From: Candidatus Rokuibacteriota bacterium
GTDB taxonomy: Bacteria > Methylomirabilota > Methylomirabilia > Rokubacteriales > CSP1-6
Direction of reading: 5' to 3'
DNA length: 41,118 nt
Assembly: GCA_016188005.1 (NCBI GenBank)
Contig: JACPIQ010000062.1
Span: 1 to 41,118, forward strand
Under the pieces are notes generated by a model, which saw only the letters and a program-made list of their open reading frames with translations, was not told the DNA's origin and searched no databases. Below, piece after piece: positions 292 to 22,156 of this stretch. How positions within the stretch are numbered: position 1 is the first letter of the stretch; each line of letters starts with the position of its first letter. Position numbers and translations under genes: made by a program.

Positions 292-368
292 GCGCCCGTA
301 GCTCAGTCGGATAGAGCGTCAGACTTCGAATCTGAAGGTCGGGGGTTCGATTCCCTCCGGGCGCGCCA
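292..368 (+). tRNA. tRNA-Arg (anticodon UCG)
   Basis: The sequence folds into a complete cloverleaf. The acceptor stem GCGCCCG (292-298) pairs with CGGGCGC (358-364). The D stem is GCTC/GAGC. The anticodon stem TCAGA/TCTGA encloses loop CTTCGAA with anticodon TCG at 326-328. The T arm is GGGGG-TTCGATT-CCCTC. Discriminator G365 is followed by an encoded CCA (366-368). The anticodon reads CGA arginine codons. Seventy-seven bases is a normal length. No repeated 3' end of the tRNA is seen in the window, so there is no evidence that it has served as an integration site. Confidence 0.97.
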
Positions 369-1465: not shown

Positions 1466-3094
1466 ATGCTGCCCACGGCGCAGAACTGGCTGGACCCGCG
1501 GCCGCAGCCACGAGGCGTGGCGCTGGCGTCCCGGCCGTCCGGCAGTCCTCGTCGCCTGGTGTGCTTCGACAACGGCAAGCTGAGCCCGCCGTATCACCGC
1601 TGGATGCCGATCCTGCCGGAGCTGGTCGCGCAGCTCGAGCGCCTCGGCCACGTGACCGTCGAGTGCAGCGACCTCTTGAGCGAACCCGTCGCGGATCACG
1701 CCGCGCACGTCGCTCGATGGCAGCGAAGCGGGATCGACGGCGTCGTCTTCGCCCTCTGCGACGCCGGCGTGACATTGCCGACGGTGCAGCTGGCGGCGGC
1801 GGCCGAGGCTGGTGGCATCCCCACCGCGATCGTCTGCACCGAACAGGTCATCGAGGTCGCCGCGGTCTCGGCCGGGTTCCTCGCACCGGGCCTGCCGTTG
1901 CTGGTCATCACAGGGGGTCGCCTCGATGGTCCCGATCAGCTCGTCGCCGCCGTCGCGGAGCTCGGCTCGGCGCTGCGCGACGCGATCAGCCAACCAGCGG
2001 CCGAGCTCCAGGCCCGCTTTCGCCGGAGCTTTCCATTCGTCGCCGCGCTGGCGCGGCGACCGGCGTCGACGGCTGCGGAGCCGTTCGCGGCGGTGGCCGC
2101 GCGCGAGTTCCTCACCGACGGGCTTCCAGTCACCGAACCGACCCGGGACCGGGTGGACGCGCTGCTCGCCACCGGCGACCGCGACCCGGAAGACCGCCTG
2201 GTGATGTCGATGGCGCCGAGCGGTTCGCCGCTCACCGTTCGTCAGGCCGCGATCTGCGCCGCGATGGCGGGCTGCGGTCCCGAGTGCTTTCTGCTCGTCG
2301 TCGCGGCGCTCCGAGCGATGGCGGCGCCCGAGTATCGGCTATCGCTCGCCTCGATCACTACGTACCCGGGCGCCAACCTGCTCGTGTTCAGCGGTCCCGC
2401 GGCCCAGGCGGCCGGCGTCGCTCACGGACGCGGCTGCCTCGGGCCCGCTCATCGCGCGAACCTCGCGATCGGGCGGGCCGTCGCGCTCACGCTGATCACG
2501 GTCGGCCGCGCGATTCCCGGGCTGTCGACGCTCTGCCAGCTCGGCTCTCCCGGGCAGATCGCCTGCTGCTTCGCCGACGACCCTCACGGTCCGCTGCCGC
2601 CGCTCCACACCGAGCTGGTCTCGCCCGGGGATTCCATCGTGCTCGTGCAGAAGTGCGAGTCGCCGCACAACGTGCTCGACCATCTGTCCTCCACGCCCGA
2701 GCAGCTCTTGGCGACGGTGGCCGCCGTGGCCGCGACGGTTGGCGGCAACAACGCCTACGTGCCCAGCGACCTCATCGTCATCCTGAATCCGGAGCACGCC
2801 GAGATCGTCGCGCGGGCAGGGTGGCGGCGGCGTGATGTGCAGCAGTTCCTCTGGCAGGAGGCCCGCAACGAGCGCAGCCGGCTGCACGGACGAGGAGCCA
2901 AGCCCGAGTGGCCCGCGGAGTGGAGCGCGCTCGATCGTGTGCCCGTCGCGCCCAGCCCGGACCGCATCTGGGTCGTCGTGGCCGGAGCGCCCGGGCCGCA
3001 TTCGATGGTGGCGAAACCATGGGGCTACGCGCAGGCCGTCTGGCAGCCCGTCCACCGCGCAGCCGTCGCCGATCGATGGCGCGGCGACACGTAA
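1466..3094 (+). CDS. UGSC-family-like protein lacking the redox Cys/Sec motif
   Basis: A 542-residue soluble protein. Residues 30-130 resemble the UGSC (seleno)protein domain: an RLVCFDNGKLSPPYHRW start, a hydrophobic strand, and then GGIPTAIVCTEQV, matching the GIPT-x-x-TE segment that follows the family's namesake motif. Where family members carry U/C-G-S-C-T, this protein has CDAGVTLPT (residues 98-106), so the catalytic Cys/Sec position appears to be lost or shifted to C98. The second half (about 235-440) matches the C-terminal domain found in long UGSC proteins: AGCGPE, RGCLGPAHRANLAIGRA and GGNNAYVPSDLIVILNPEHA. No biochemical role is established for the family. It is the first gene of the operon, 30 bases before the binding-protein gene. 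No clear ribosome site precedes the ATG, so the start is uncertain. Family assignment is moderate, from remembered motifs. Confidence 0.72.
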   Translation: MLPTAQNWLDPRPQPRGVALASRPSGSPRRLVCFDNGKLSPPYHRWMPILPELVAQLERLGHVTVECSDLLSEPVADHAAHVARWQRSGIDGVVFALCDAGVTLPTVQLAAAAEAGGIPTAIVCTEQVIEVAAVSAGFLAPGLPLLVITGGRLDGPDQLVAAVAELGSALRDAISQPAAELQARFRRSFPFVAALARRPASTAAEPFAAVAAREFLTDGLPVTEPTRDRVDALLATGDRDPEDRLVMSMAPSGSPLTVRQAAICAAMAGCGPECFLLVVAALRAMAAPEYRLSLASITTYPGANLLVFSGPAAQAAGVAHGRGCLGPAHRANLAIGRAVALTLITVGRAIPGLSTLCQLGSPGQIACCFADDPHGPLPPLHTELVSPGDSIVLVQKCESPHNVLDHLSSTPEQLLATVAAVAATVGGNNAYVPSDLIVILNPEHAEIVARAGWRRRDVQQFLWQEARNERSRLHGRGAKPEWPAEWSALDRVPVAPSPDRIWVVVAGAPGPHSMVAKPWGYAQAVWQPVHRAAVADRWRGDT

Positions 3095-5828: not shown

Positions 5829-7483
5829 AACACAAGGACGCCTTCGATCCCGTCACGCTCGAGATCCTGTGGAGCCGGCTCCTCGCCATCGTCGACGAGT
5901 CGGCGCTGGCGCTCCAGCGCACCTCCTTCTCGACCACGGTGCGCGAGTCGAACGACTTCGCCGCGGTGCTGCTGGCTCCGGATGGCACGACGCTCGCCGA
6001 GAACTCGCTCGGCGCGCCCTCCTTCGCCGGCGTGATGACGCTGGTGATGCGCCACTTCCTCGATCGCTACCCCGCGGAGACCTGGCGCCCGGGCGACGTC
6101 GCGCTCACGAACGATCCGTGGTTCAGCACGGGCCACCTGCCCGACACGACGACGATCACGCCGATCTTCCATCGTGGCCGGCTTGTCGCGTTCACCGGCA
6201 ACACGTCCCACAAGGCCGACATCGGCGGGGTCGGCTACGCGGCCGACGCCGCGGAGGTGTTCGAGGAAGGCCTGCGGATCCCGATCTGCAAGGTGCAGCG
6301 CGGGGGCGAGCTGAACGAGGACGTCATGGAGTTCATCCGCGCGAACGTGCGTGTCCCGGACTCGGTCCTCGGCGATCTCCATGCGCAGATCGCGGCCGGG
6401 CACGTGTGCGGCGAGCGGGTCGTCGAGTTCCTCGAGGAGCAGGACGTGCCCGACCTCGCGGCGCTCGGCGATGCGATCCAGGGGCGCGCCGAGAGCGCGA
6501 TGCGCCAGGCGATCGCCGAGGTGCCCGACGGCGAGTACCGCTTCGAGATGGAGATCGACGGTTTCGAGCGGCCGACGCGCATCGTCGTCACCGTGCGCGT
6601 GCGCGGCGACGAGCTCGAGGCCGACTTCACCGGGACATCGGCACAGTCGCGCCGCGGCATCAACGCCGTCTTCAACTACACGTACGCCTTCAGCTGCTAC
6701 ACGGTGAAGTGCGTGCTCGACCCGTTCACGCGCAAGACGGGCGGATCGTATCGGCCGATGCGGATCATCGCGCCCGAGGGCTCGATCCTGAACGCGCGGC
6801 GACCCGCCGCGGTGAACGCGCGTTCGATGACCGGGCACTGCGTGTCGTCCGCGCTGCTCGGCGCGCTGAGCCAGGCGCTGCCCGACCGCGTCATCGCCGA
6901 CTCCGGCTCGTGCCCCGGGCTCCGCGTCGCGTGCTACGGCGTCGATCGCCACGGCAGCCGGTTCGCGCAGATCCTGTTCCCGAACGGCGGCATGGGCGCG
7001 CGCCCGCACGTCGACGGACTGTCCTGCACCGGGTTCCCGACCAACGCGGGCTGCGCGGCCGTCGAGGTCATGGAGGGCGTGGCCCCGCTCGTGTTCTGGG
7101 AGCGCGAGCTACTGCCGGACAGCGGCGGGCCCGGCCGCCAGCGCGGCGGCCTCGGCCAGCGCGTCGTGGTCGAGGTCGTGTCGAGGGAGCCCGTCGCGCT
7201 GTCGACGCAGTTCGACCGCATCGATCACCCGGCATGGGGACTGTTCGGCGGACTGCCAGGAGGAGCGGCGCGGCTCGTGATGAACGGCTCAGAGCGGGTG
7301 CCGGCGAAGGGACGCGTGATCGCGCGTCCGGGCGACCGCCTGACGATTCACTACGCTGGCGGCGGAGGATACGGTCCGCCAACCGAGCGCGCGCGGGCGC
7401 TGGTGGCGCGGGATCTGCGCGACGAGCTGATCTCCGCCGAGGCAGCGCGAGCGATCTACGGATACGACGGAGGCCCGCGATGA
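5825..7483 (+). CDS. hyuB: Hydantoinase B / oxoprolinase-type subunit
   Basis: A 552-residue HyuB-family protein. The N-terminus FDPVTLEILWSRLLAIVDESA and the following SFSTTVRESNDFAAVLLAPDG are characteristic, as are the segments NDPWFSTGHLPD and FTGNTSHKADIGG. Together with HyuA this subunit forms ATP-dependent cyclic-amide hydrolases (N-methylhydantoinase, 5-oxoprolinase, caprolactamase) or related acetone/acetophenone-type carboxylases; B subunits carry conserved metal and substrate residues. GTG at 5825 overlaps the ATPase stop (GTGA) and the end overlaps hyuA (ATGA). The length matches free-standing B subunits. Whether it opens a lactam, hydantoin or another ring, or carboxylates a ketone, cannot be told from sequence. 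Confidence 0.94.
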   Translation: MKHKDAFDPVTLEILWSRLLAIVDESALALQRTSFSTTVRESNDFAAVLLAPDGTTLAENSLGAPSFAGVMTLVMRHFLDRYPAETWRPGDVALTNDPWFSTGHLPDTTTITPIFHRGRLVAFTGNTSHKADIGGVGYAADAAEVFEEGLRIPICKVQRGGELNEDVMEFIRANVRVPDSVLGDLHAQIAAGHVCGERVVEFLEEQDVPDLAALGDAIQGRAESAMRQAIAEVPDGEYRFEMEIDGFERPTRIVVTVRVRGDELEADFTGTSAQSRRGINAVFNYTYAFSCYTVKCVLDPFTRKTGGSYRPMRIIAPEGSILNARRPAAVNARSMTGHCVSSALLGALSQALPDRVIADSGSCPGLRVACYGVDRHGSRFAQILFPNGGMGARPHVDGLSCTGFPTNAGCAAVEVMEGVAPLVFWERELLPDSGGPGRQRGGLGQRVVVEVVSREPVALSTQFDRIDHPAWGLFGGLPGGAARLVMNGSERVPAKGRVIARPGDRLTIHYAGGGGYGPPTERARALVARDLRDELISAEAARAIYGYDGGPR

Positions 7484-9561
7484 CGGCGCCGCGCATCGGC
7501 ATCGACGTCGGCGGCACGTTCACCGACTTCGTCCTGCTCGACGAGGCGCGCGGCACCGTCCATCTCGGGAAGTGCCTCACGACGCCCGCGGATCCCAGCG
7601 AGGGCGTGCTGGCGGGTCTCGCGGAGTTGCTCGACTCGTCGGGACGCCCGCTGGACGCCGTCGCCGCGGTGATCCACGGGACGACGCTGGTGACGAACAC
7701 GATCATCGAGCGGAAGGGGGTGAACGTCGGACTCGTCACGACCGAGGGGTTCCGCGACAGCCTCGAGATCGGCCGTGAGTTCCGCTATGACATCTACGAC
7801 CTCACGATCGAGCGTCCCGAGCCGCTCGTCCCGCGCTTTCTCCGCCGAGGGCTGCCCGGCCGCATCTCGGCCACCGGCGAGGAGCTCCGGCCGCTCGCGC
7901 TCGACGGGCTGCCGGCCATCGTCGATCTCTTCCGCGCCGAGGGCGTCACGTCGGTCGCGGTGTCGCTGATCCACTCCTACGCGAACCCGGTCCACGAGCG
8001 CGCCGTCGCCGAGGCGCTGGGCCGGCTGTTCCCCGAGGCGGCCGTGACGCTCTCGGTGGATCTCGTGCCGGAGATCCGCGAGTACGAGCGCACGTCGACG
8101 GCGGTCGCGAACGCGTACGTGCTGCCGATCGTCGCGCGCTACCTCGGGCGGCTCGAGGCATCGCTCCGCCAGCGCGGGCTGGCCGGACCGTTCCACCTGA
8201 TGCAGTCGAACGGCTCGCTCGTCAGCGCCCCCGCCGCCGCCGCGATGCCGATCCGGCTCCTCGAGTCCGGACCGGCGGGCGGCGCGATGGCGGCGCGGTT
8301 CTACGGTCAGCTCTCGGGCCACCCGAACCTCATCGCGTTCGACATGGGCGGCACGACGGCCAAGATGTGCCTGATCGACGACGGCGAGGTGGCCGTCGTC
8401 CACGAGTTCGAGGCGGCTCGCGTGCACCGGTTCAAGAAGGGCTCGGGCTTCACCGTGAAGGCGCCGGTCATCGAGATGATCGAGATCGGCGCCGGCGGCG
8501 GCTCGATCGCGCGTGTCGACCGCATGGGGCTGCTCAAGGTCGGGCCCGAGAGCGCCGGCGCCGATCCGGGACCGGCGTGCTACGGGCGCGGGGGCACCGA
8601 TCCCACCGTGACCGACGCGGATCTCGTGCTCGGCCACCTGAACGCGGGCTTCTTCCTCGGCGGCCGCATGAAGCTCGACCGCGACCGCGGCGCGGCCGCC
8701 GTGGAGAAAGGCGTCGCGGCCGCGCTCGGCGGCGACGTCGCCCAGGCCGCTGCGGGCATCCAGGAGGTCGTGAACGCGAACATGGCGACCGCCACGCGTC
8801 TGCACGTCGCCGAACGCGGGCGCGACTTGCGGAAGTACGAGCTCATCGCGTTCGGCGGCGCCGGTCCCGTGCACGCCTACCGGCTCGCGCAGCTGCTGCG
8901 CCTGCGCCGCGTGATCTTCCCGCTCGGCGCCGGTACCACGTCGGCGCTCGGGTTCCTCGTCGCGCCGATGGCCGTCGATCAGGTGCGGAGCTACGTCGGC
9001 CGGCTCGACGCGCTCGACTGGGCGCACGTCGCCGCGCTCTACGACGAGATGGAAGCGCGCGGGCGAGAGGCCCTCCACGAGCTCGGCGTCGCGGCCGAGC
9101 ACGTCACGATCGATCGCAGCGCCGAGATGCGATACGTCGGCCAGGGCTTCGAGATCCCGATGCCGCTGCCGGGAGGGCCGCTCGGGCCCGAGCGCCTCGC
9201 GGAGATCCGCTCGGCGTTCCTCGACGCCTACCGGCGGTTCTTCGGCCGCGCGCTCGAGGAGAACCCGGTGGAGGCGATCACGTGGCGCGCGACCATCAGC
9301 GGCCCGCGCCCGTCGCTGAGGCCGGAGTTCGCCGACACGGCCGGCGCCGACCGGAGTCCCGTCAAGGGACGGCGCCCCATGTACTTCGCCGATCAGCGCG
9401 GCTTCCTCGACGCGACGGTCTACGACCGCTACGCGCTCGCGCCCGGCGCCGCGGTCCATGGTCCCGCCGCGCTCGAGGAGCGTGAGTCGACGGTCGTCAT
9501 CGGGCCCGGCGCCGTCGGCCGCATCGATCCGTACTGCAACCTGGTGGTGGAGCTGCCATGA
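7480..9561 (+). CDS. hyuA: Hydantoinase A / oxoprolinase-type ATPase subunit
   Basis: A 693-residue HyuA-family protein with the ASKHA-fold phosphate motif near its start (RIGIDVGGTFTDFVLLD), the HGTTLVTNTIIERKG segment, and a second phosphate-binding motif in LIAFDMGGTTAKM (about residue 290). It also has the family segments GAGGGSIARVD and DPGPACYGRGG. HyuA activates the substrate carbonyl with ATP while HyuB completes hydrolysis or carboxylation. ATGA overlaps join it to hyuB upstream and to the AtuA-family gene downstream. In this operon the pair is the likely first catalytic step after uptake. If the substrate were 5-oxoproline the product would be glutamate, but the altered mutase downstream argues for something different. 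Confidence 0.95.
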   Translation: MTAPRIGIDVGGTFTDFVLLDEARGTVHLGKCLTTPADPSEGVLAGLAELLDSSGRPLDAVAAVIHGTTLVTNTIIERKGVNVGLVTTEGFRDSLEIGREFRYDIYDLTIERPEPLVPRFLRRGLPGRISATGEELRPLALDGLPAIVDLFRAEGVTSVAVSLIHSYANPVHERAVAEALGRLFPEAAVTLSVDLVPEIREYERTSTAVANAYVLPIVARYLGRLEASLRQRGLAGPFHLMQSNGSLVSAPAAAAMPIRLLESGPAGGAMAARFYGQLSGHPNLIAFDMGGTTAKMCLIDDGEVAVVHEFEAARVHRFKKGSGFTVKAPVIEMIEIGAGGGSIARVDRMGLLKVGPESAGADPGPACYGRGGTDPTVTDADLVLGHLNAGFFLGGRMKLDRDRGAAAVEKGVAAALGGDVAQAAAGIQEVVNANMATATRLHVAERGRDLRKYELIAFGGAGPVHAYRLAQLLRLRRVIFPLGAGTTSALGFLVAPMAVDQVRSYVGRLDALDWAHVAALYDEMEARGREALHELGVAAEHVTIDRSAEMRYVGQGFEIPMPLPGGPLGPERLAEIRSAFLDAYRRFFGRALEENPVEAITWRATISGPRPSLRPEFADTAGADRSPVKGRRPMYFADQRGFLDATVYDRYALAPGAAVHGPAALEERESTVVIGPGAVGRIDPYCNLVVELP

Positions 9562-11036
9562 GCGTCGAGCCGGCCGCGAGGGAGATGCGCTGCTTCGGCG
9601 CGTCGGGCCAGCTCGGGTACGGCATCCCCCGCGCCGCGTATCTGCGCGGGCTCGAGCAGGGCCCGGCGTACGTCGGCTGCGACATGGGCTCGACGGATCC
9701 CGGGCCCTACTTCCTAGGCGCGGGCGAGCCGGCCACCGGGTACGCGTCGCGCCGCGCCGATCTCGAGCTCGTGCTGACGACGGCGCGCGAGCGTCGGCTC
9801 CCCCTCCTGATCGGCTCCGCGGGGACGGCCGGCGGCGAGCCGCATCTTGCGGACACGGTCGACATCGTGCGGACGATTGCCGCCGAGCATGGTCTCCGGT
9901 TCCGCATGGCGGTGATCCACTCGGAGATCGACCGCGACTTCGTCCTCGACCGGCTGCGCAAGGGACGCATCGGACCGTGCGGCCGCGTGCCCGCGCTCAC
10001 GGAGCAGGACGTCGAGCAGAGCGTTCGCATCGTCGGGCAGATGGGCGTCGAGCCGTTCATCAAGGCCCTCGACGCGGGCGCGGACGTCATCGTCGCCGGC
10101 CGGTCGTGCGACACGAGCATCTTCGCGGCGATGCCGATCCGAAGCGGATTCGATCCGGGTCTCGCCATGCACCAGGCGAAGCTGATCGAGTGCGCGTCGG
10201 CCTGCGCCGACCCCGGCGGTCGCGACGCCGCGATCGCGTATCTGCGCGACGACCACTTCCTGATCGAGTCGCAGAACCCGGCGCGCCGCTGCACGCCGGT
10301 GTCGGTGGCCGCGCACAGCCTCTACGAGCAGCCGGACCCCTACCGCGTGTACGAGCCGGGCGGCATGCTGGACCTCCGCGAGTGCCGGTATGAAACCGTC
10401 GACGAGCGGATCACCCGGGTCAGCGGCAGCCGCTGGGTGCCCGCGCCGGAGTACACGATCAAGCTCGAAGGCGTGGCACACGTCGGGTACCGGGCGTTCG
10501 CGATGGGAGGCACGTGCGATCCGATCTTCATCGAGCACCTGGACGAGACCGCAGCCGCGGTGCGGGGGATCGTCGCCGGCGTGTTCCCGAAGCTCGCGGA
10601 GGGGCGCGAGTACCGGCTGCGGTTCCGGACCTACGGCCGGAACGGCGTGATGGGGGAGATCGACCCCGAGCCCGCCGGGCGCCCGCACGAGGCGTTCGTG
10701 ATCATGGACGTGGTGGCCGAGTCGGCGGACCTCGCGCACTCGGTCTGCGGCGTCGCGAAGCAGTACTTCCTGCACTACTTCTACGACGGCATCGTCGCCA
10801 CCGCGGGCAACATCGCGATCCCGTTCGGGCCGGACGTGATCCCGGGCGGCGCCGTGTACCGGTTCAACGTCTATCACCTCGTCACCGTGGACGACCCGTG
10901 CGAGCTCTTCCCGATGGAACTGGTCGACGTCACCGGGGGCCCCGAAATGGCCCCCCATCCCCCCCAACGCTCGGCGGCGCCCCGGGGAACCCGCGGCGCC
11001 CCTCGGGGACCCGAGAGGAGACGGTCGCATGCGTAA
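9558..11036 (+). CDS. AtuA-family (DUF1446) protein with an odd C-terminal tail
   Basis: A 492-residue protein of the AtuA/DUF1446 family. Supporting segments are CFGASGQLGYG, YVGCDMGSTDPGPYFLG, IGSAGTAGGEPHL, the DVIVAGRSCDTSIFAA strand-loop and EGVAHVGYRAFAMGG. AtuA is required for acyclic terpene degradation in Pseudomonas, yet relatives are widespread beside other catabolic genes and their reaction is unknown. The ATG overlaps the hyuA stop. After ELVDVTGG (about residue 463) the protein loses family character and ends in a Pro/Arg/Ala-rich tail encoded by C- and G-runs; the natural end may have lain there. The stop overlaps the TAXI gene by 8 bases. A DUF4387 gene follows the mutase genes, as commonly seen with this family. 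Confidence 0.88.
   Translation: MSVEPAAREMRCFGASGQLGYGIPRAAYLRGLEQGPAYVGCDMGSTDPGPYFLGAGEPATGYASRRADLELVLTTARERRLPLLIGSAGTAGGEPHLADTVDIVRTIAAEHGLRFRMAVIHSEIDRDFVLDRLRKGRIGPCGRVPALTEQDVEQSVRIVGQMGVEPFIKALDAGADVIVAGRSCDTSIFAAMPIRSGFDPGLAMHQAKLIECASACADPGGRDAAIAYLRDDHFLIESQNPARRCTPVSVAAHSLYEQPDPYRVYEPGGMLDLRECRYETVDERITRVSGSRWVPAPEYTIKLEGVAHVGYRAFAMGGTCDPIFIEHLDETAAAVRGIVAGVFPKLAEGREYRLRFRTYGRNGVMGEIDPEPAGRPHEAFVIMDVVAESADLAHSVCGVAKQYFLHYFYDGIVATAGNIAIPFGPDVIPGGAVYRFNVYHLVTVDDPCELFPMELVDVTGGPEMAPHPPQRSAAPRGTRGAPRGPERRRSHA
10935..11020 (+). promoter_or_regulatory. Intercistronic hairpins and ribosome site before the TAXI gene
   Basis: Two GC-rich hairpins lie in the tail of the AtuA gene: GGGGGCC (10935-10941) with GGCCCCC (10949-10955), and CTCGGG (11002-11007) with CCCGAG (11010-11015). 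The second ends where the ribosome site AGAGGAG (11014-11020) begins, 8 bases before the TAXI ATG. Such structures can stabilise the downstream mRNA or tune initiation for an abundant binding protein; function here is inferred. Confidence 0.4.
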
Positions 11037-12039
11037 GCGTGTGGTGCGCGGTGCCGGCGGCATCCTGGTTGCCCTGCTCGTCGTGCTGGCCGTGGTGACG
11101 CCGCTCGTGGCGCAGGAGCGGCGCACGCCGCCGCCCGGCGAGCCGAAGGTGAAGGCCCAGCGCTGGCAGATGGGGACGGCGCCGGTGGGCGGCACGTTCT
11201 ACACGCTCGGCGCGGCGATCTCGAAGCTCGCCAACGCGAAGGTGTCCGGTCTGCAGATCGTGGCGCAGGTGAGCCCCGGGTCGAGCGCGGAGAACTTCGA
11301 GCTCCTGATGGCGCGGCAGATCGAGCTCGGAATGTCGGACAACTTCCTCGCGATGACGAAGACGGGCAAACCGTGGAAGAACGTGCGACTGGCGTTCAGC
11401 CAGCACGCGAACACGGTCCACTTCGTGGTGCGCAAGGAGTCAGCGATCACGTCGCCGGCCGACTATCGCGGCAAGCGGGTCGCGGTCGGTAACCCGAACT
11501 CCGGCATGAACAACACCAACGAGAAGATCCTGGAGGCGGGCTGGGGCATCGCGTTCAAGGACATGGCGACGCGGCAGATCCACGTCGCCCCCGGCCTCCA
11601 GGGCATCAAGGACGGTCAGCTCGATGCCGTCAACATCCCGACCGGCGTCCCGGTCGCGAGCATCCTCGAGCTCGCCCGCACGACGCCGCTCCGGTTCCTG
11701 TCGTTGACGCCGGACGACATCCGGCGGATCCGGCAGAAATACCCCGAGTACAACAGCCTCACGATCCCGAAGGGCGCGTATCCTGGGCAGGATGCGGACG
11801 TCCACACCATCGGGACCGTCTCCTTCATGCTGACGCACGATCAGGTCGACGCCGACGCGATCTACTGGCTGACGCGGACCGTGTTCGAGAACCTGGCCGA
11901 GCTCAAGCAGGCGCACCCCGCGGCGAAGGAGTTCTCGGCCGAGAACGTGATCCGCTTCTCGGAGCCGTACGTCCAGGCGGGGATCGCCTTCCACCCGGGC
12001 GCGGCCCGATACTTCAAGGAGGTCGGACTCCTCAAGTAG
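11029..12039 (+). CDS. TAXI-family TRAP transporter solute-binding protein
   Basis: A 336-residue periplasmic binding protein. It has a basic start, a hydrophobic signal helix (GGILVALLVVLAVVTPLVAQ) and then the TAXI hallmark QMGTAPVGGTFYTLGAAISKL. Further family segments are SAENFELLMARQIELGMSDN and YRGKRVAVGNPNSGMN. AGAGGAG 8 bases before the ATG is a good ribosome site. The fused TRAP permease follows after 13 bases, so this is a TAXI-TRAP secondary importer driven by an ion gradient. It is a second, mechanistically distinct uptake system in the same operon as the NMT1-type ABC importer. TAXI ligands are mostly uncharacterised; glutamate/glutamine and other carboxylates have been reported. 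Confidence 0.95.
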   Translation: MRKRVVRGAGGILVALLVVLAVVTPLVAQERRTPPPGEPKVKAQRWQMGTAPVGGTFYTLGAAISKLANAKVSGLQIVAQVSPGSSAENFELLMARQIELGMSDNFLAMTKTGKPWKNVRLAFSQHANTVHFVVRKESAITSPADYRGKRVAVGNPNSGMNNTNEKILEAGWGIAFKDMATRQIHVAPGLQGIKDGQLDAVNIPTGVPVASILELARTTPLRFLSLTPDDIRRIRQKYPEYNSLTIPKGAYPGQDADVHTIGTVSFMLTHDQVDADAIYWLTRTVFENLAELKQAHPAAKEFSAENVIRFSEPYVQAGIAFHPGAARYFKEVGLLK

Positions 12040-12052
12040 GAGCCCGGACTGC

Positions 12053-13924
12053 ATGATCGACGCCCTCGAGCGAGGCGGTGGCCGGCTCCTCTCCGTGGTC
12101 GCGGTGGCCATGTCGCTCTTCCACCTCGCCACGGTCGACTACCGGTTCGTGGGCTTCGAGACCAAGTACATCCTGCACGTCGCCTTCGCGATCGTGCTGA
12201 TCGGCTGGAGCCGGGGCTTCGTTCTCAGGCCGGGCCCGGACCGCGTCCGGATCGACGCGCTGCTCGCCGGCGTGGTCGTGCTCGTCGCCACCGCCTACGC
12301 GCTGCGCTTCTTCTACGAGGCGGCAGAGAACCCGGTGAGGCGCCCCCCGCACGAGCTGCTGCTCAGCGTCCTCCTCATCCTGCTGCTCCTGGCGCTTTGC
12401 CAGCGCCTCGACGGGTGGGCGCTCGTGATCGTGATCGCGACGTTCTTCCTCTACGCGCTGTTCTCCGACTACGTGCCGGGCCCGTTCGGCCAGCGCGCGC
12501 TGCCGTGGCAACGGCTCGCGAGCCGGCTCTACCTGACCCAGGAAGGCATCTACGGTTCCATCACGGCGGTCTCCGCCACGTTCGTGTTCATCTTCATCCT
12601 CTTCGGTGCGTTCCTCGAGCAGTCCGGCGGCGGCGAGTACTACTCTCGCGTGGCGCAGGCGATCTTCGGCACCGCACGCGGCGGGGCGGCCAAGGTCGCG
12701 GTCGCCGCCAGCGCGTGCTTCGCGATGCTCTCCGGCAGCGCGCTCGCGAATGCCGCCTCCACCGGCCAGATCACGATTCCGATGATGCGGCGCGCCGGGT
12801 ACCGGCGGGAGTTCGCGGGCGCGGTCGAGGCAGTGGCCAGCATCGGCGGCGAGGTCACCCCGCCCGTGATGGCCGGCTCCGTGTTCGTGATGATCGCGCT
12901 CCTCGGCATCACGTACGGCACGGTGGCGAGGGCGGCGGCGCTGATCTCGGTGCTGTTCTACGTCAGCGTGTTCCTCTCCGTTCACGCGGAGGCGTGCAAG
13001 CAGGGGCTCCGCGGCATGCCGCGCGAGGAGGTGCCCCCGCTCTGGCCGACGCTCAAGGAAGGGTGGTACTACTTCCTGCCCCTCGTGCTCGTGCTCGGGC
13101 TCCTCATCGGATGGGACTATCCGGCGGAGCGCGCCGGACTGCTCGGCGTGCTGTCGATCCCCGTGGTGCTCCTCCCGACGAGGCACCGCATGACGTTCCG
13201 GCGGATGATCGCGGCGCTGCGCGGCGGCGCCATGCTCGGCGCCTCGATCGGCGTGCTGATCATCGCCGCCCAGATGATCGCATCACTGATCAACTTCACG
13301 GGACTGGGCCTCACGTTCTCCGAGCGCCTCATCGGCCTCGCCGGCGAGGAGCTCGTGCCACTGGTGATCCTGTGCTTCCTGGCGACCCAGATCCTCGGGC
13401 TGCCGCTGCCCGCGGTGACGACCTACATCATCCTGGCTGCGATGGTCGCGCCCGCGATGGTGAAAGCGGGCGCCAACCCGCTCGCCGCGCACATGTTCAT
13501 CCTCTACGGCGCGATGACGGCGGTGATCACGCCGCCGGTCGCGCCCGCCGCGATGCTGACCGCCGGCATCGCGGAGGCGAACTACCTCAAGACCTCGTGG
13601 GAAGCGATGCGACTCGCCGTGTCGAAATTCATCTTGCCGTTCATGTTCGTGTTCAATCCGGCCTTGCTGCTCGACGGCGATCTGCGCGACATCGTCTGGG
13701 CCACGTTCCGGGCCGCCATCGTCGTCGTCGCCTCCGTGGTCGCGGTGCAGGGCTGGGGGCTCCGGGCGGCGACGTGGCTCGAGCGCGTGCTGTTCGGCGT
13801 CGGCTGCGTCTTGCTGATCTCGCCGGCGGTGCTCGTCGACATGGCGGGCCTCGGCGTGATCGGCCTGGCGACGGCGCTGCACGCGATGCGGTCGGAGCCC
13901 GTGTCTGCCCGGGTCACGGGGTGA
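12053..13924 (+). CDS. TRAP transporter fused permease (DctQ+DctM)
   Basis: A 623-residue integral membrane protein combining the small and large TRAP subunits, as is usual for TAXI systems. An N-terminal set of about four helices precedes the DctM-like domain, recognised by FGAFLEQSGGGEYYSRVAQAI, SGSALANAASTGQITIPMM and VASIGGEVTPPVMAGSVF. These are the substrate/Na+ hairpin motifs of the large subunit. A second, symmetry-related loop has AVITPPVAPAAMLTAGIA. It couples an ion gradient to import of the solute delivered by the TAXI protein. TAGGAG upstream of the ATG serves as ribosome site. Confidence 0.95.
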   Translation: MIDALERGGGRLLSVVAVAMSLFHLATVDYRFVGFETKYILHVAFAIVLIGWSRGFVLRPGPDRVRIDALLAGVVVLVATAYALRFFYEAAENPVRRPPHELLLSVLLILLLLALCQRLDGWALVIVIATFFLYALFSDYVPGPFGQRALPWQRLASRLYLTQEGIYGSITAVSATFVFIFILFGAFLEQSGGGEYYSRVAQAIFGTARGGAAKVAVAASACFAMLSGSALANAASTGQITIPMMRRAGYRREFAGAVEAVASIGGEVTPPVMAGSVFVMIALLGITYGTVARAAALISVLFYVSVFLSVHAEACKQGLRGMPREEVPPLWPTLKEGWYYFLPLVLVLGLLIGWDYPAERAGLLGVLSIPVVLLPTRHRMTFRRMIAALRGGAMLGASIGVLIIAAQMIASLINFTGLGLTFSERLIGLAGEELVPLVILCFLATQILGLPLPAVTTYIILAAMVAPAMVKAGANPLAAHMFILYGAMTAVITPPVAPAAMLTAGIAEANYLKTSWEAMRLAVSKFILPFMFVFNPALLLDGDLRDIVWATFRAAIVVVASVVAVQGWGLRAATWLERVLFGVGCVLLISPAVLVDMAGLGVIGLATALHAMRSEPVSARVTG

Positions 13925-13981
13925 GCCCTGGGGGCACGGTCGAACGGGCCCACGGTGATCGAGACGGTCAGCGAGGGAATC

Positions 13982-14440
13982 ATGGGTGATGAGCTGCGAC
14001 GGGGTGTTCCGACGGTGATCACGGGCGTGGTGGGCGACGACATCCACGTCATCGGCATCCGCGTCCTCGAGCACGCGCTCCGCAACGCCGGCTTCACGGT
14101 CGTCTCGCTTGGCGCGCAGGTCGCGCCCGAGGAGTTCATCCAGGCGGCGGTCGAGACGGCGGCAGGCGCGATCCTGGTGTCGTCGCTCTCGGGTCACGCC
14201 GAGCTGTTCCTCCGCGACTTCCGCGCGAAGTGCGACGAGGCCGGCCTCGACGGGATCAAGCTCTACGTCGGCGGTTTCCTCGGCGTCGGGCGACAGAAGT
14301 GGGACGAGGTCGAGGCGAAGTACCGCGGCTTCGGCTTCGACCGTGTGTACGCGCCGGGGACGCCGCCCGAGCGGGCGATTGCGGATCTCCGGGCGGAGCC
14401 CGGCGCGCCGGCGGTCGCGGGCCCGGGGGGCCCCCGGTGA
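13982..14440 (+). CDS. glmS: Glutamate-mutase-like cobalamin-binding small subunit
   Basis: A 152-residue B12-binding subunit. It has the cobalamin motif D-x-H-x-x-G in GVVGDDIHVIG near the start, then SSL (VSSLSGHAE) and VGG (KLYVGGFLGVG). The stretch KCDEAGLDGIKLYVGG and the ending GFDRVYAPGTPPERAIADL match clostridial GlmS closely. The histidine of DxHxxG replaces the lower ligand of cobalt. I prefer ATG 13982, preceded by GAGGGA, to the in-frame GTG at 13955, because family members begin just before the first strand. About 15 extra Pro/Ala/Gly residues follow the normal C-terminus. It pairs with the large subunit encoded 58 bases downstream. Confidence 0.93.
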   Translation: MGDELRRGVPTVITGVVGDDIHVIGIRVLEHALRNAGFTVVSLGAQVAPEEFIQAAVETAAGAILVSSLSGHAELFLRDFRAKCDEAGLDGIKLYVGGFLGVGRQKWDEVEAKYRGFGFDRVYAPGTPPERAIADLRAEPGAPAVAGPGGPR

Positions 14441-14498
14441 GCTCGCAGGGCGAAGCGGGCCGACGCCGCGCGAGGCCCTCGGCCTGGAGGAGACTCCA

Positions 14499-15998
14499 GT
14501 GAGCCCGCGTGCGGTCGGGGGGCCGCCGAGCAACGTGCGGAACGCCCGGTGGACCGACGAGGAGTTCCAGGCCGTGCGCGCCCAGGTGCTGGCGATGTGG
14601 CCCACGGGCCGCGAGGTCGATCTCGACGAGGCCGTGGGCTTTCATCGCTCGCTCAAACCCGGCCAGAACCACGCCCGACGGCTGGCCGAGGCGCGGCGCA
14701 CGGGCCGGACGCTGATCCAGCCGCTCGCCGGCGTCGCCACGGTCGGCGGCCAGATCGCGCTCACGCGGTGCCTTCAGGACGAGGGTGGCGCCGACGTCGT
14801 GCCGACGCAGGTCGACAGCCTCACGCGGACGCTGCGGTTCGCCGAGGCGGAGACGAAGATCACGGAGAGCGAGCACGCGGGCCGGTCGCTCTTGAACGGA
14901 TTCCCGATCGTCAACCACGGGGTCGCGAAGGCGCGGCGCGTGGTGGAGCAGCTCCGCGTGCCGGTCGAGCTCAGGGCCGGGGCGCCCGACCTGCGCCTCG
15001 TGGCCGAGATGGCCTTCGCCTCCGGCCACTCCGGCTTCACGGTCGGCCCCATCTACTACACCTTCCACTACTCGAGCGGTGTCGAGCTCGCCGACTCGAT
15101 CCGCTACTGGCAGTACCTCTTCCGGCTCGCCGGCATCTACCAGGAGCGCGGCGTGCCGATCTCGCTCAACGTGCACGGCGCCCACAACTCGGCGCACTTC
15201 CCGCACAGCCTGCTGAACGCGGCGGTCGTGCTCGAGACGCTGCTCGCCGCCGAGCAAGGCGTGCGCAACGTCCACATCGACACGCGCTGCATGGGGAACC
15301 TGGTGCAGGACGTCGCGGCGGCGCGGATCGCGGCCGGCGTGGTGACGGACTACTGCCGCCGGTCGGGCTATCCCGACGTGAGCGTGTACACCGTCAACAA
15401 GACGTGGTCCGGTGCGTTTCCGCAGGACGAGCCGAAGGCCTACGCGCTGCTCGCGTTCAACTCGACGATCGGCGCGCTCGCCGGCGCCGACGAGCTGATC
15501 ATCAAGTCCGTCGAGGAGGCGGTCGGGGTGCCGGCGAAGGAGAAGAACGCGGCGTCGATTCGCTCCGTGCGCCACACGGTCGACATGGTGAAGGCGCAGC
15601 GCGTGCCGCTCGACGAGCGGGCGCTCGCGCGCGAGGCGGAGATGGTCGAGGCCGAGACGCGCGCCGTGGTCGACCGGGTGCTCGAGGTCGGCGGCGGCGA
15701 CCCGGCCGTCGGCATCGTCCGCGCGGTCAAGGCCGGGTACCTCGACGTGCCGTTCGCGGCCAGCCGTCACTGTGCGGGCAAGGTGCTGGTCGTCCGCGAT
15801 GCCGACGGCGCCGTTCGCTTCCTCGACCCCGGCGACCTGCCGATCCCGAAGGACGTGCTCGCGTACCACCGCGAGAAGATCGCCGAGCGCGAGGCCGTGC
15901 TCGGGCGTCCCGTCGGGTACCAGGAGGTCGTGGAGGACGTGCTCTTCCTCAGCACCGGCGTGCTCGCGGGCAGCGCGGCGCGGGCGGCCAGGACGTAG
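14499..15998 (+). CDS. glmE: Glutamate-mutase-like large subunit with altered substrate pocket
   Basis: A 499-residue TIM-barrel subunit of a coenzyme-B12 carbon-skeleton mutase. It aligns without gaps to Clostridium cochlearium GlmE as I recall it, with a constant offset of 10 from WTDEEF through to LLAAEQGV. R110 and R159 (R100, R149 in GlmE), Y187 and Y191 (Y177, Y181), and the K-x3-E pair in IIKSVEEA (K326, E330) are kept. The third claw arginine R66 is L76, and E171, which contacts the substrate amino group, is T181. A barrel loop has become VHGAHNSAHFPHS (225-237). These changes fit a substrate other than glutamate. GTG 14499 follows GGAGGAG with good spacing. Subunit identity is secure; substrate is unknown. 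Confidence 0.93.
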   Translation: MSPRAVGGPPSNVRNARWTDEEFQAVRAQVLAMWPTGREVDLDEAVGFHRSLKPGQNHARRLAEARRTGRTLIQPLAGVATVGGQIALTRCLQDEGGADVVPTQVDSLTRTLRFAEAETKITESEHAGRSLLNGFPIVNHGVAKARRVVEQLRVPVELRAGAPDLRLVAEMAFASGHSGFTVGPIYYTFHYSSGVELADSIRYWQYLFRLAGIYQERGVPISLNVHGAHNSAHFPHSLLNAAVVLETLLAAEQGVRNVHIDTRCMGNLVQDVAAARIAAGVVTDYCRRSGYPDVSVYTVNKTWSGAFPQDEPKAYALLAFNSTIGALAGADELIIKSVEEAVGVPAKEKNAASIRSVRHTVDMVKAQRVPLDERALAREAEMVEAETRAVVDRVLEVGGGDPAVGIVRAVKAGYLDVPFAASRHCAGKVLVVRDADGAVRFLDPGDLPIPKDVLAYHREKIAEREAVLGRPVGYQEVVEDVLFLSTGVLAGSAARAART

Positions 15999-16005
15999 GG
16001 CCGGG

Positions 16006-16320
16006 ATGGCGACGCTCAGGGAGATCGCGAAGGTCATCCGCACCAAGAACGCCGGGCCCTTCTACCTGACCGCCGACGTGATGTTCGACGACGAGGCGCT
16101 CTACCGGCGGGTGCTGGCGTCGAACGTGTTCGATCGCGCGGCGATGGCCGCGCTCTACCGGAGACCGCCCGACGACGTGACGGTCATCGCGCACGACGCG
16201 TCGCGCTCGATCAAGATCACGCTCGTGCGGCGGGTTCCGGCGGGCGACCCGGACGACACCGACATCTACGGAGCACAGCAGCACCTGCCGCTGCTGAACC
16301 TGCACATCCCGGACGTGTGA
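16006..16320 (+). CDS. DUF4387 protein
   Basis: A 104-residue soluble protein matching DUF4387, from the start LREIAKVIRTKNAGPFYLTAD to the end VIAHDASRSIKITLVRRVP and DIYGAQQHLPLLNL. DUF4387 proteins are usually encoded beside AtuA/DUF1446 genes, and the two are thought to work together, although no reaction is known. Here the partner AtuA gene lies about 5 kb upstream in the same operon, while DUF4387 sits between the two mutase genes and the mutase reactivase. The ATG is 7 bases after the mutase stop, and the end overlaps the next gene (GTGA). Confidence 0.88.
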   Translation: MATLREIAKVIRTKNAGPFYLTADVMFDDEALYRRVLASNVFDRAAMAALYRRPPDDVTVIAHDASRSIKITLVRRVPAGDPDDTDIYGAQQHLPLLNLHIPDV

Positions 16321-17714
16321 CCGTGCCCGCGGTCTTCCTGATCGACTTCGGCAGCACGTTCACGAAGATCGTCGCGGTGGATCCCGCAGCACCGCGCGTG
16401 CTCGCGCGCGTCCAGGCGCCGTCCACCGTCGACACCGACGTGCGGGTCGGGCTCGACGCAGCGCTCGGTGAGCTGCGTACCGCGCTCGGCACGCCGGCCG
16501 TGGCGGCCGGACGATTCATGGCGTCGAGCAGCGCGGCCGGCGGCCTTCGGCTCGCCGCCCTCGGGCTCGTGCCCGAGCTCACCGCGGAGGCGGCTCGGCG
16601 CGCGGCGCTCGGCGCCGGGGCGCGGGTGCTGCGCGTCTTCGCGCATCGCCTCAACTCCCGCGAGGCGGCGGCGCTCGAGGCGCTCGCACCCGAGATCGTG
16701 CTGCTGGCCGGCGGCACCGACGGGGGCAACAGCGAGGTCGTGCGTCACAACGCGGCCGCGCTCGCCCGGACCTCGCTGACGTGCCCGATCGTCTACGCCG
16801 GCAACAAGGACGCGACCGACGAGGTGGAGGCGCTCCTGCGCGCCGGCGGCAAGGACGTCGTCGTCACCGAGAACGTGCTGCCCGAGATCGGCCGGCTGAA
16901 CGTCGAGCCCGTGCGCGACGCGGTGCGTGAGCTGTTCATGCGCCGGATCGTGGAGGCGAAGGGCATGCATCGCGTGCGCCCGATGGTCGGCGACGTGCTC
17001 ATGCCGACGCCCATGGCCGTGCTCCTGGCGGCGGTGCTGCTCGCGCACGGCGTTCCTGGCGAGGCCGGCGTCGGCGACGTCGTGGTCGTCGACGTGGGCG
17101 GCGCGACCACCGACGTGCACTCCGCGGCGTCGGGGACGCCGAGCGATCCGACGTGGGTGGTGCGCGGGCTGCCGGAGCCGTTCGCGAAGCGCACGGTCGA
17201 GGGGGACCTGGGACTTCGCGTGAACGCGGGCTCCGTGCTCGAGGCGGCGGGAGGGGAGCGGCTCGCGTCGCTCGCGAGCCTTCCGGCGGCGCGCGTGACG
17301 ACGATGGTGGCGCAGCTCGCGCGCGAGACCGAGCGCGTCCCGACGACGCGCGACGAGCACGCGCTCGACGAGGCGCTCGCCCGCACCGCGGTCTCGATCG
17401 CGGTGGGACGCCACGCGGGGACCGTCGAGACCGTGTACGGCATCGCGGCGACGCCGGTCCAGGTCGTGCGGGGCAAGGACCTCACTCGTGTGGGCGTGGT
17501 CGTCGGGACCGGCGGCATCTTCGCCCACGGCGCGGCGCCGCGCCGCGTCCTCGAGGGCGCGCTGGTCGACGCGACGAGCCCGTTCTCGCTGCGCCCGCGC
17601 GATGCGCGGCTGCTGGTCGATCGCTCGTACCTGCTCTACGCGATGGGACTGCTGGCCGGCGACGACCCGCGGGCGGCACTTCGTCTCATGAAGCGACATC
17701 TCGTCGACGCCTGA
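16317..17714 (+). CDS. glmL: MutL/GlmL-type mutase-associated ATPase
   Basis: A 465-residue ASKHA-fold protein of the MutL/GlmL family. The first phosphate motif is FLIDFGSTFTKIVAVD, and the second is VVVDVGGATTDVHSAA (about residue 258). LLAGGTDGGNSEVVRHN and GGIFAHG are further family segments. GlmL-type proteins are encoded with glutamate mutase and are believed to reactivate it by exchanging damaged cobalamin using ATP. Its presence supports a functional B12 mutase here despite the altered pocket. GTG 16317 overlaps the DUF4387 stop. This is the last gene of the long operon; no clear intrinsic terminator follows. Confidence 0.92.
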   Translation: MTVPAVFLIDFGSTFTKIVAVDPAAPRVLARVQAPSTVDTDVRVGLDAALGELRTALGTPAVAAGRFMASSSAAGGLRLAALGLVPELTAEAARRAALGAGARVLRVFAHRLNSREAAALEALAPEIVLLAGGTDGGNSEVVRHNAAALARTSLTCPIVYAGNKDATDEVEALLRAGGKDVVVTENVLPEIGRLNVEPVRDAVRELFMRRIVEAKGMHRVRPMVGDVLMPTPMAVLLAAVLLAHGVPGEAGVGDVVVVDVGGATTDVHSAASGTPSDPTWVVRGLPEPFAKRTVEGDLGLRVNAGSVLEAAGGERLASLASLPAARVTTMVAQLARETERVPTTRDEHALDEALARTAVSIAVGRHAGTVETVYGIAATPVQVVRGKDLTRVGVVVGTGGIFAHGAAPRRVLEGALVDATSPFSLRPRDARLLVDRSYLLYAMGLLAGDDPRAALRLMKRHLVDA

Positions 17715-17817
17715 TCTCGGGCCTCGAGGAGCGCTTCCCCTGAGGTGTAGTATCGGTCTCAGCGGGCCCGGATCTCGGGGAGGAAGCGGAATGTCGACTC
17801 GACACGAGGAGGCGACC

Positions 17818-19182
17818 ATGGAGATCCCTCGAAGGGACGTCCTCAAGGGCGCGGCGGCCGGAGCTGTGGTGGCCGTGGTGGGGCAGGCCGTTGCCCAGCC
17901 GGCCACCGGGGCCGCCATCGAGCCCAATGATCGCGTGTTCATCTGCAATGAAGACTCGAACACTCTGGCAGTCATCGATCCGCGGTCCAACCGAGTGGAG
18001 ACCACCGTCAACCTCACGAGCTTCGACGAGGACCCGCGTCCGCCATTTCGGTTCGTGACGGGCGGGGTCATGCCGACCCATGCCGCCATGATCGCCAAGC
18101 CGCTCTATCACGGAGCCATCCTCATTCACGGGGCGGTTCCGTCGCCGGACGGGCGCTACGTCGTCTCGACCGGGCGGGGAAGCAGCAACGTGTACATCAC
18201 GGACACGACGGCCAAGCGCGTGATCGGCAGCACACCCAACCCCCAGGCCGGGCCCACCACGAACGCCGAGCGACTCACCACGGGTATCCTCGTGGGGCGC
18301 GAGCCCCACGAGCCGACCTTCACGCGCAACGGCAAGGAGATCTGGGTCACGGTCAGAGGCGAGGATCGGATCGCAGTCATCGATGCGGAGACGGCGTTCA
18401 GGGCGAGCGGGGGTGGCGAGTCCACGGCGCTGCGGAGCTATGTCTCGACCCTCAACGGGCCTGCCCAGGTCTGGTTCTCCGCGGACGGCCGTCTCGCCTT
18501 CGTGGCGAGCCAGAAGATGTCGCAGGTGGAGATCATCAGCGTGGACTATGACGCCGAGGGGCGCTCGCGGCCGACGAGCAAGGTGGTGGTGGACATCCGC
18601 GCCCAGGATCCGGTCGGGTTCACGCCCTTCCTCAAGCTGTCCCCCGACGGCACAGAGATGTGGCTGTCCCACAAGCTGGCGGACCGCGTCTCCGCCCTCG
18701 GCACGCGCGACCCCGGCCGGTCAGTCGATGTGGTGTCCCTCGGACCACAGGCCCGGCCCAACCACGTGGAGTTCGTCGAGAATGCCCGCGGTCGAGTCGT
18801 CTACGTGAGCCTGGCGCGCATCGACGACGGAGGACCCGGCGGGGTCGCTTCGAGCCAGATCGCCATCATCGATCGCGCTGCCCCGGCGGGGCGGCGGCAG
18901 GTGGCGGGGACGTTCTTCACACGGGGCCGCGAGGCCCACGGTCTCTGGACCAACCCGTCTCACACCCTGCTCTACGTCGCCCACGAGCAGGACGAGTTGC
19001 CGGGGACGCCCGCCGCCGGGCAGACGGTGGCGAGCGCTTTTGACGTCTCGAATCCGCTCGCGCCCGTCTTCCTGGCGCAGATCCCTCTGGGATCACTGAG
19101 TCTTCCCTCCGGCCAGCTCCGGAACAAGAAGAGCATCAATCTGGTCTACGTGCGGCCCGGCAGCCGGAGCCAGAGCGCCTGA
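17818..19182 (+). CDS. Exported YncE-like beta-propeller protein (Tat signal)
   Basis: A 454-residue protein. It starts with a twin-arginine-like signal (PRRDVLKGAAAGAVVAVVGQ) followed by repeated propeller strands such as RVFICNEDSNTLAVIDPRSN, YITDTTAKRVIGS, GKEIWVTVRGEDRIAVIDAE and GRLAFVASQKMSQVEIISVD. These are the D-x-A-x-x blade patterns of the YncE/surface-antigen seven-bladed family. I place the start at ATG 17818, 5 bases after GAGGAGG, because it puts RR at residues 5-6; ATG 17791 with GGGGAGGA ahead of it is a real alternative. Folding before export and a periplasmic location are inferred from the signal. It overlaps the DUF305 gene by one base. Function is unknown; relatives are associated with metal or cofactor handling. 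Confidence 0.85.
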   Translation: MEIPRRDVLKGAAAGAVVAVVGQAVAQPATGAAIEPNDRVFICNEDSNTLAVIDPRSNRVETTVNLTSFDEDPRPPFRFVTGGVMPTHAAMIAKPLYHGAILIHGAVPSPDGRYVVSTGRGSSNVYITDTTAKRVIGSTPNPQAGPTTNAERLTTGILVGREPHEPTFTRNGKEIWVTVRGEDRIAVIDAETAFRASGGGESTALRSYVSTLNGPAQVWFSADGRLAFVASQKMSQVEIISVDYDAEGRSRPTSKVVVDIRAQDPVGFTPFLKLSPDGTEMWLSHKLADRVSALGTRDPGRSVDVVSLGPQARPNHVEFVENARGRVVYVSLARIDDGGPGGVASSQIAIIDRAAPAGRRQVAGTFFTRGREAHGLWTNPSHTLLYVAHEQDELPGTPAAGQTVASAFDVSNPLAPVFLAQIPLGSLSLPSGQLRNKKSINLVYVRPGSRSQSA

Positions 19183-19526
19183 TGGCGGACCGGGCGCGGG
19201 AATTCTCTGGGGCCATGCACGCGGCGATGCAGGGCATGATGGCCGCCATGCATGGCGCGGCCCTGAGCGGCGATCCGGACCGGGACTTCCTGGCAATGAT
19301 GATCCCGCACCACGCGGGGGCGGTCGAGATGGCGCGGGTCGTGCTCGTACACGGTCGCGATCCCCTGGTTCGGCAGCTCGCCGAGGAGATCATCGCGAAC
19401 CAGCAGGCGGAGATCAGCGCGATGAACGGCCGCCTCGCGGTGCTCCGCCGCGGTCGCGATCTCGACCCGGGCGGGTTCCCGGCGATCGGCGGAACTCGAG
19501 GCCCGGTGGATCGGACGGGACCTTGA
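19182..19526 (+). CDS. DUF305 family protein without a signal peptide
   Basis: A 114-residue four-helix-type protein. The DUF305 core is clear: DRDFLAMMIPHHAGAVEMAR (about residues 32-51), then DPLVRQLAEEIIANQQAEIS. The HH and the many methionines (MHAAMQGMMAAMHGA) are features of the family, some members of which have been linked to copper. Most relatives are exported, but no signal peptide is seen here, and the last 25 residues are Gly/Pro/Arg-rich. It begins inside the stop of the propeller gene (TGATG), so the two are co-translated and may act together. Metal binding is inferred only. Confidence 0.88.
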   Translation: MADRAREFSGAMHAAMQGMMAAMHGAALSGDPDRDFLAMMIPHHAGAVEMARVVLVHGRDPLVRQLAEEIIANQQAEISAMNGRLAVLRRGRDLDPGGFPAIGGTRGPVDRTGP

Positions 19527-19605
19527 GGCTCGGCGGGCCGGGGAACCGGGGGCGCGTGGGCGCCATGGAGGCGGTATCCTCCGGAGCGCCCCGCCGGCTG
19601 GCCCC

Positions 19606-19998: not shown

Positions 19999-20095
19999 GC
20001 CTGCCTCCTCGGGGTCCCCCGCGTGTGTGGGATAGTGAGTGGGCCGAGCTTAGCACGAGGTGGGGGCGTGACCGTCCCCGCGGGGCCGTTCCGCG

Positions 20096-20124: not shown

Positions 20125-20132
20125 TCCTGCGC

Positions 20133-21638: not shown

Positions 21639-21654
21639 TCTCCGCCCCGCGGCC

Positions 21655-22152: not shown

Positions 22153-22156
22153 CGCC

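Follow-up and report, generated by a model that had tools for sequence, protein, structure and literature searches.

Does a protein that bears the name of glutamate mutase still act on glutamate when two contacts that define this substrate have been replaced and, if not, what does it rearrange? The question is raised by an open reading frame at 14499..15998 of the DNA analysed here (the window, 41,118 nt from the genome of a soil bacterium of Candidatus Rokuibacteriota; features whose coordinates are written with two dots lie on the + strand), which encodes a GlmE-like mutase large subunit of 499 amino acids with a re-tooled substrate pocket. Membership of the GlmE fold was judged by family score and TIM-barrel fold, and both were met. 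The protein scored 479 bits against TIGR01503 (cut-off 390), shared 43% identity with C. cochlearium GlmE, and had the glutamate mutase structures 6H9E, 1CB7, 1CCW and 1I9C as its best solved relatives (phmmer against the PDB, E = 1e-129), with residues 13-491 aligned to residues 3-480 of the clostridial enzyme. An earlier note on this DNA had proposed a constant offset of 10 between the two proteins. The alignment bore this out, the first gap being one residue near query position 376, and because the offset is constant up to about that point, residues 66-330 are free of gaps. An AlphaFold2 model (pLDDT 88, pTM 0.90) superposed on 6H9E_B and 1CB7_B with TM scores of 0.93 and 0.96, respectively (rmsd 1.5 Å, 479 columns), in agreement with this register, so that no arginine or glutamate is concealed at the altered sites by a register shift.

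Co-encoded partners and retained cofactor residues served as further marks of a GlmE-fold mutase, and all were present. The GlmS-like B12-binding small subunit (13955..14440; NF002612, 174 bits; PDB 1I9C_A, E = 4e-45) carries the Co-binding motif DxHxxG as DDIHVIG, the mutase-associated accessory protein GlmL/MutL is encoded at 16317..17714 (NF040745, 556 bits; cut-off 475), and G68 and N123 of the adenosine cavity as well as K326 and E330, which handle the radical, are conserved (C. cochlearium numbering). In glutamate mutase, the glycyl fragment is held by R66 and R149, with E171 at its amine, the acrylate fragment is held by R100 and Y177, and the residues lining the adenosine cavity include G68 and N123 (PMC10947579), roles that agree with the earlier description of the two altered sites as glutamate contacts. 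For glutamate mutase itself we looked for the complete arginine claw (R66, R100 and R149) and for the E171 contact with the substrate amine, and found neither. Codon checks confirmed that R66 is leucine (L76, CTC, 14724..14726) and that E171 is threonine (T181, ACG, 15039..15041), the latter in unambiguous register, and also confirmed the residues said to be kept, namely R110 (R100), R159 (R149), Y187 (Y177), Y191 (Y181), K336 (K326) and E340 (E330). Further changes went unmentioned in that description: H150 is alanine (A160, 14976..14978), T94 is Q104, P180 is H190 and F216 is H226, and the loops 212-226, 251-253 and 291-296 differ as well. The window protein thus resembles the C. cochlearium glutamate (methylaspartate) mutase (EC 5.4.99.1; 1CCW, 1I9C, 6H9E) in its fold, its GlmS and GlmL partners, its adenosine cavity and its R100, R149, Y177, Y181, K326 and E330, and differs from it at the sites just listed, in the absence of an ammonia-lyase and in its position on a separate branch (see below). 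At the level of sequence, then, the cofactor side and the acrylate contacts R100 and Y177 are kept, while the glycyl site (R66, H150, E171 and loops at about 212-226, 251-253 and 291-296) is rebuilt.

The pocket does not, however, argue in one direction only. Because R149, Y177 and Y181 remain, the amino-acid site partly survives, which counts against a different substrate, and the protein might still be a glutamate mutase in which Q104, H190, H226, the hydroxyl of T181 and R159 stand in for R66 and E171, with the part of the ammonia-lyase played by an unrelated enzyme or with 3-methylaspartate used as such. The retained R149, R100, Y177 and Y181 are in favor of that reading, as is the passing of the equivalog cut-off of TIGR01503. 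Moreover, among pocket residues invariant in canonical GlmE (a list drawn in part from the literature), 5/9 were changed in the window protein compared with 37/127 of the other canonical-invariant positions, an enrichment that was not significant with so short a list (p = 0.13).

A survey of homologues placed these substitutions in context. It comprised 133 distinct GlmE sequences from Bacillota, Chloroflexota, Spirochaetota, Dictyoglomi, Acetothermia, Alphaproteobacteria, NRPS clusters and the phylum of the window. The R66/R149/E171 trio was intact in 106 of them (93 with an identical 13-residue pocket signature), so that its loss in the window protein is not a matter of chance; divergent alphaproteobacterial, NRPS-linked and spirochaete sequences keep it too, and the joint conservation of the three residues across so wide a range weighs against a glutamate mutase with substitute contacts. 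GlmE matches were found in 86/299 sampled Bacillota genomes (the weakest not GlmE proper), with a single match in all but one, and the loci fetched for the best 30 of these matches were all canonical. The remaining 27 of the 133 sequences, the window's included, were non-canonical: E171, H150, N178, N212 and G296 were missing from every one, G68 was kept in all 27, and R100 was kept in 133/133. The Co-binding DxHxxG of GlmS was likewise conserved in 19/19 non-canonical copies tested and in the window GlmS. Deviant GlmE occurred in the window's own family (G036, G038 and G054), where R66 is kept and R149L, H150S and E171L are found, and in seven Chloroflexota genomes (G190, G238, G279, G507, G519, G523 and G533), where the pockets vary by subclade. 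Several genomes carried more than one full-length copy (seven in G519, five in G533, three each in G507 and G238); those of G519 lay on contigs C61, C99, C9, C14 and C15 (loci L146, L152, L156, L159, L161, L177 and L178), with an additional fragment. A first search of contigs with the window GlmE as the single query had given no match. The exact L66/T171 pocket was confined to one MAG among the 133 homologues, and since no homologue exceeds about 49% identity, its conservation cannot be judged. The expectation that this pair would mark a clade was accordingly not met: it occurs only in the window protein, and the pockets of the non-canonical group are many and different.

To place the window protein, a GlmE tree was computed with nine pocket columns left out. 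In this tree, 26/27 non-canonical sequences, among them the window's, fell on one side of a branch with an SH-aLRT support of 95, and the 27th (L129) took a basal position among the canonical sequences. The window protein did not group with characterised GlmE, and forcing it onto the canonical side was 17.7 log units worse and was rejected (p-AU 0.029). Its nearest relatives within the clan were two G519 paralogues with weak support (85); owing to its long end branch (1.02 changes per column), its position there is uncertain. The closest relatives with an R66/L149/L171 pocket were considered as orthologues and rejected, being placed in a different subclade.

Methylaspartate ammonia-lyase, the pathway partner of glutamate mutase, was found near 81/85 canonical GlmE loci as opposed to 0/23 non-canonical loci (Fisher 1e-19; some of the latter loci are short). 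It was absent from the window, as had been stated for the operon, and none was detected in the genome, which is 98% complete (best match 21 bits, below the 27-bit cut-off). In comparison with the methylaspartate pathway operon of glutamate-fermenting clostridia (glmSLE-mal-mesaconase-citramalate lyase), the window therefore shares a mutase and a downstream lyase, but its operon lacks the ammonia-lyase, and no mesaconase was found among the operon genes. Some canonical GlmE without an ammonia-lyase adjoin NRPS genes, a precedent that would favor a glutamate mutase here, yet no NRPS gene was present among the window genes scanned. With the separate branch and the want of an ammonia-lyase anywhere in the genome added to the broken trio, we regard the retention of glutamate mutase activity as improbable. 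By database naming the protein is a glutamate mutase, and its machinery is the same, yet it should not be filed as one, since the R66 and E171 contacts are missing, its place in the tree is apart from the characterised enzymes, and its pathway partner is absent. Instead, we think it probable that the window GlmE is the large subunit of an adenosylcobalamin-dependent carbon-skeleton mutase that has the GlmS/GlmE architecture but acts on something other than glutamate, although no activity data are available. The earlier suggestion of a B12 mutase for a different substrate is supported in this respect by the separate branch, the missing ammonia-lyase, the conserved cavity and R100, and the accompanying GlmS and GlmL.

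For such a mutase, a course can be proposed from the retained residues. Binding of the substrate would lead to Co-C homolysis, after which the 5'-deoxyadenosyl radical would abstract a hydrogen from the CH2 beside the kept carboxylate half; the substrate would fragment into acrylate, held by R100, and a stabilised radical X, and recombination would convert X-CH2-CH2-COO- to CH3-CH(X)-COO-, with X being something other than the glycyl radical. Loss of the contact for the ammonium and the want of an ammonia-lyase both point to an amine-free group as X. That the substrate is a non-amino compound is nevertheless an inference without biochemistry behind it.

What becomes of the product may be read from the remainder of the operon, whose order is HyuB, HyuA, AtuA, TAXI, TRAP permease, GlmS, GlmE, DUF4387 and GlmL, preceded, perhaps as part of the operon, by genes for a UGSC-like protein, an NMT1-type binding protein and an ABC ATPase. 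The AtuA protein (9558..11036) matched citramalate lyase subunit A (cmlA; PDB 9ERQ_A, E = 3e-112) and the DUF4387 protein (16006..16320; Pfam DUF4387, start codon checked) matched subunit B (cmlB; 9ERQ_B, E = 3e-18), so that homologues of both CmlAB subunits are encoded. The DUF4387 gene begins 7 nt downstream of GlmE and overlaps GlmL by 4 nt. Among 84 canonical GlmE loci, AtuA was present in 24 (23 with DUF4387; e.g., L047, L054, L095 and L115) and CitE-type genes in 31, and the two never occurred together (chance 1e-6), an exclusion that supports AtuA plus DUF4387 as a CoA-independent citramalate lyase. Thus, in canonical glutamate operons this pair is likely the citramalate lyase CmlAB (PDB 9ERQ). 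A DUF1446 gene has been noted beside mal in enterobacteria, and the fate of citramalate in some bacteria has been called unclear (PMC4682846). The enterobacterial gene is probably the A subunit of this CoA-independent lyase, and the linkage of AtuA and DUF4387 with ammonia-lyase operons indicates what probably becomes of citramalate in those bacteria.

The lyase of the window could not be equated with citramalate lyase, for which we looked for retention of invariant positions and grouping with 9ERQ. Its CmlA kept 110/157 columns that are near-invariant among ammonia-lyase-linked lyases, with several arginines lost, and its CmlB kept 20/25 positions invariant among the linked copies; in a tree with long branches, CmlA grouped with a Paracoccus copy, outside the branch of 9ERQ and the ammonia-lyase-linked proteins. 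Relative to CmlAB (9ERQ/9EVF), CmlA is homologous over its full length and CmlB is encoded directly between GlmE and GlmL, but the subunit genes lie 5 kb apart. A position outside the citramalate-lyase branch is as expected if the mutase and lyase steps have both changed substrate: a mutase without its glutamate contacts stands beside a drifted lyase, with the intervening ammonia-lyase step missing. The earlier note had asked whether the L/T sites define a clade linked to hyuAB and AtuA. The pair is not a mark of variant mutases, since AtuA/DUF4387 was found in 24/84 canonical operons and at 0/23 other non-canonical loci; nor is HyuAB, which none of the other non-canonical loci carries.

Glutamate mutase itself turns over L-2-hydroxyglutarate slowly. 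A CmlAB-type lyase would be expected to split a branched mutase product by retro-Claisen/aldol chemistry, and the most concrete candidate route, in which the specific substrate is a guess, would run from 2-hydroxyglutarate through 3-methylmalate to glyoxylate and propionate, as a hydroxy version of the methylaspartate pathway minus deamination and hydration. This would account for the loss of the ammonium contact through E171T, and neither a deamination nor a hydration would be needed, in keeping with the operon, which encodes neither; lyases of the CmlAB type use a 2-hydroxy dicarboxylate (PDB 9ERQ), and (S,S)-tartrate, a hydroxy-dicarboxylate, is bound in the claw of real glutamate mutase, an observation that also counts for a non-glutamate mutase feeding a CmlAB-type lyase in general. 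On the other hand, R66L weakens the hold on a carboxylate that a hydroxy analogue would retain, the arginine losses of CmlA suggest that the substrate resembles a C5 dicarboxylate less closely, and HyuAB is left without a role. We therefore hold this specific route to be rather unlikely as it stands.

HyuAB requires attention in its own right. HyuA (7513..9561) is an N-methylhydantoinase/5-oxoprolinase/caprolactamase-like ATPase subunit by Pfam and by PDB 7HK5 and 6YRA (NF050156, 533 bits, below the cut-off of 1000), HyuB is encoded at 5846..7483 (Pfam Hydantoinase_B, 496 bits), and transport may be served by a TAXI-type TRAP solute-binding protein (11029..12039; TIGR02122) and a fused TRAP permease (12053..13924; TIGR02123). 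The mutase substrate would come by way of HyuAB and the TRAP transporter, and it could be a larger or different-headed acid (e.g., an opened lactam, hydantoin or lactone) whose sole acrylate-side carboxylate is held by R100. Apart from the mutase and the lyase, the operon encodes no catalytic pair but HyuAB, which has a 4-nt overlap with CmlA, the glycyl end is altered by R66L, H150A and the loop changes at 212-226, and CmlA has lost several arginines, all of which would suit such an acid. The substrate of HyuAB, however, is unknown (closest are N-methylhydantoinase and 5-oxoprolinase), and no HyuAB occurs at other non-canonical loci, so that this reading remains a tentative possibility. 2-Hydroxyglutarate explains E171T, the missing steps and the lyase, yet leaves R66L and HyuAB unaccounted for, whereas an acid delivered by HyuAB explains the latter two better but is unspecified.

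The long branch, the single occurrence of the pocket and its origin in a MAG could also be taken to mean a non-catalytic or decaying copy, or an artefact of assembly or binning. The reading frame of 499 codons is open, catalytic and cofactor residues are kept, GlmS and GlmL are intact and the operon is tight, and the seven G519 and five G533 full-length paralogues with unlike pockets fit divergence of substrates rather than decay. The left flank, with tRNA-Arg(TCG) at 292..368 (ARAGORN), and the block to the right of 19617 both had matches on single contigs in two genus mates, with 85-97% identity at the DNA level, and the cargo between these edges (292-19617) was unlike in the three genomes (19.2 kb here, ~15 kb in G054 and ~4.4 kb in G055). 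Because both flanks are syntenic with genus mates, the mutase operon is physically part of this genome, as an island in a tRNA-Arg hot spot; an assembly or contamination artefact is rejected on this ground, and decay or artefact as a whole appears very remote.

We thus return to a mutase of non-glutamate type and to the group that it represents. The window protein has the marks by which we defined that group, i.e., E171 lost, R100 kept, no ammonia-lyase and a position outside the canonical branch. With the other members (G036, G038, G054 and the Chloroflexota) it shares the loss of E171 and H150, the conserved R100 and GlmS DxHxxG, and the absence of an ammonia-lyase, and it differs from them in that each subclade has another pocket and that their neighbors are MR_MLE enolase-superfamily, CoA-transferase, PrpD, UGSC or Tct genes, not CmlAB/HyuAB. 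These look-alikes are probably a hitherto unremarked group that rearranges other molecules. No description of a non-glutamate GlmE was found in the literature searched, nor anything on DUF4387, CmlAB or GlmE paralogues; most subscription journals lay outside that search, and an earlier description is not excluded. On balance, we lean towards a clan of non-glutamate GlmE/GlmS mutases, of which a single genome can carry as many as seven, in which R100 and the cavity are fixed and the site for the migrating group has been rebuilt repeatedly, each for another X-CH2-CH2-COO-, the window's member standing at the start of a catabolic route not yet described, with a CmlAB-type lyase as its last step; the unexplained role of HyuAB counts against our preferred reading of the window's own mutase.

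To our knowledge, the B12 carbon-skeleton mutases described so far fall into few classes, and every addition has opened a pathway. If the clan is what we propose, GlmE is not a one-reaction family. Since the rest of the pocket varies around an unchanged cofactor apparatus and a single fixed substrate arginine, the groups that can migrate in the GlmE radical mechanism become directly testable. TIGR01503 was passed by 5/6 non-glutamate GlmE proteins scanned, the window's among them, which makes the automatic label "methylaspartate mutase subunit E" look wrong for the whole clan.

Several minor observations concern neighboring genes. A link between the mutase and the biotin carboxylase/carrier/amino-acid ABC block at 19617-24658 was considered and is probably not specific, the block being widespread in the order and probably no component of the mutase system: the block also adjoins GlmE in G036 and G038, but its carrier has homologues in other genomes of the order, nearly all without GlmE (best 92%, in G055). 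In G038 (L043) and G036 (L044), biotin carboxylase, carrier, an MJ0158-like PLP protein and an amino-acid ABC transporter directly follow a GlmSLE with an R66/L149/L171 pocket, and no carboxyltransferase was seen among the neighboring genes scanned. In G054 (L045, 4606-4710), the GlmL match beside GlmE and GlmS spans just 35 residues, and this copy of GlmL looks truncated. The UGSC-like protein at the head of the island (1466..3094; weak Pfam UGSC match), whose association with the operon is uncertain, has homologues near 5/23 non-canonical loci (L144, L163, L164, L166 and L170) compared with 0/85 canonical loci. At L144 (G279), GlmSE with a Q94/A150/H216 pocket resembling the window's is flanked by two CaiB-type CoA-transferases and a methylmalonyl-CoA decarboxylase-like carboxyltransferase. 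MR_MLE enolase-superfamily genes, with no methylaspartate ammonia-lyase, adjoin GlmE of the L149/L171 and S66/D149 types at L139, L140, L142 and L143, with Tct transporters also adjoining at L139 and L140; methylaspartate ammonia-lyase is itself an enolase-superfamily enzyme.
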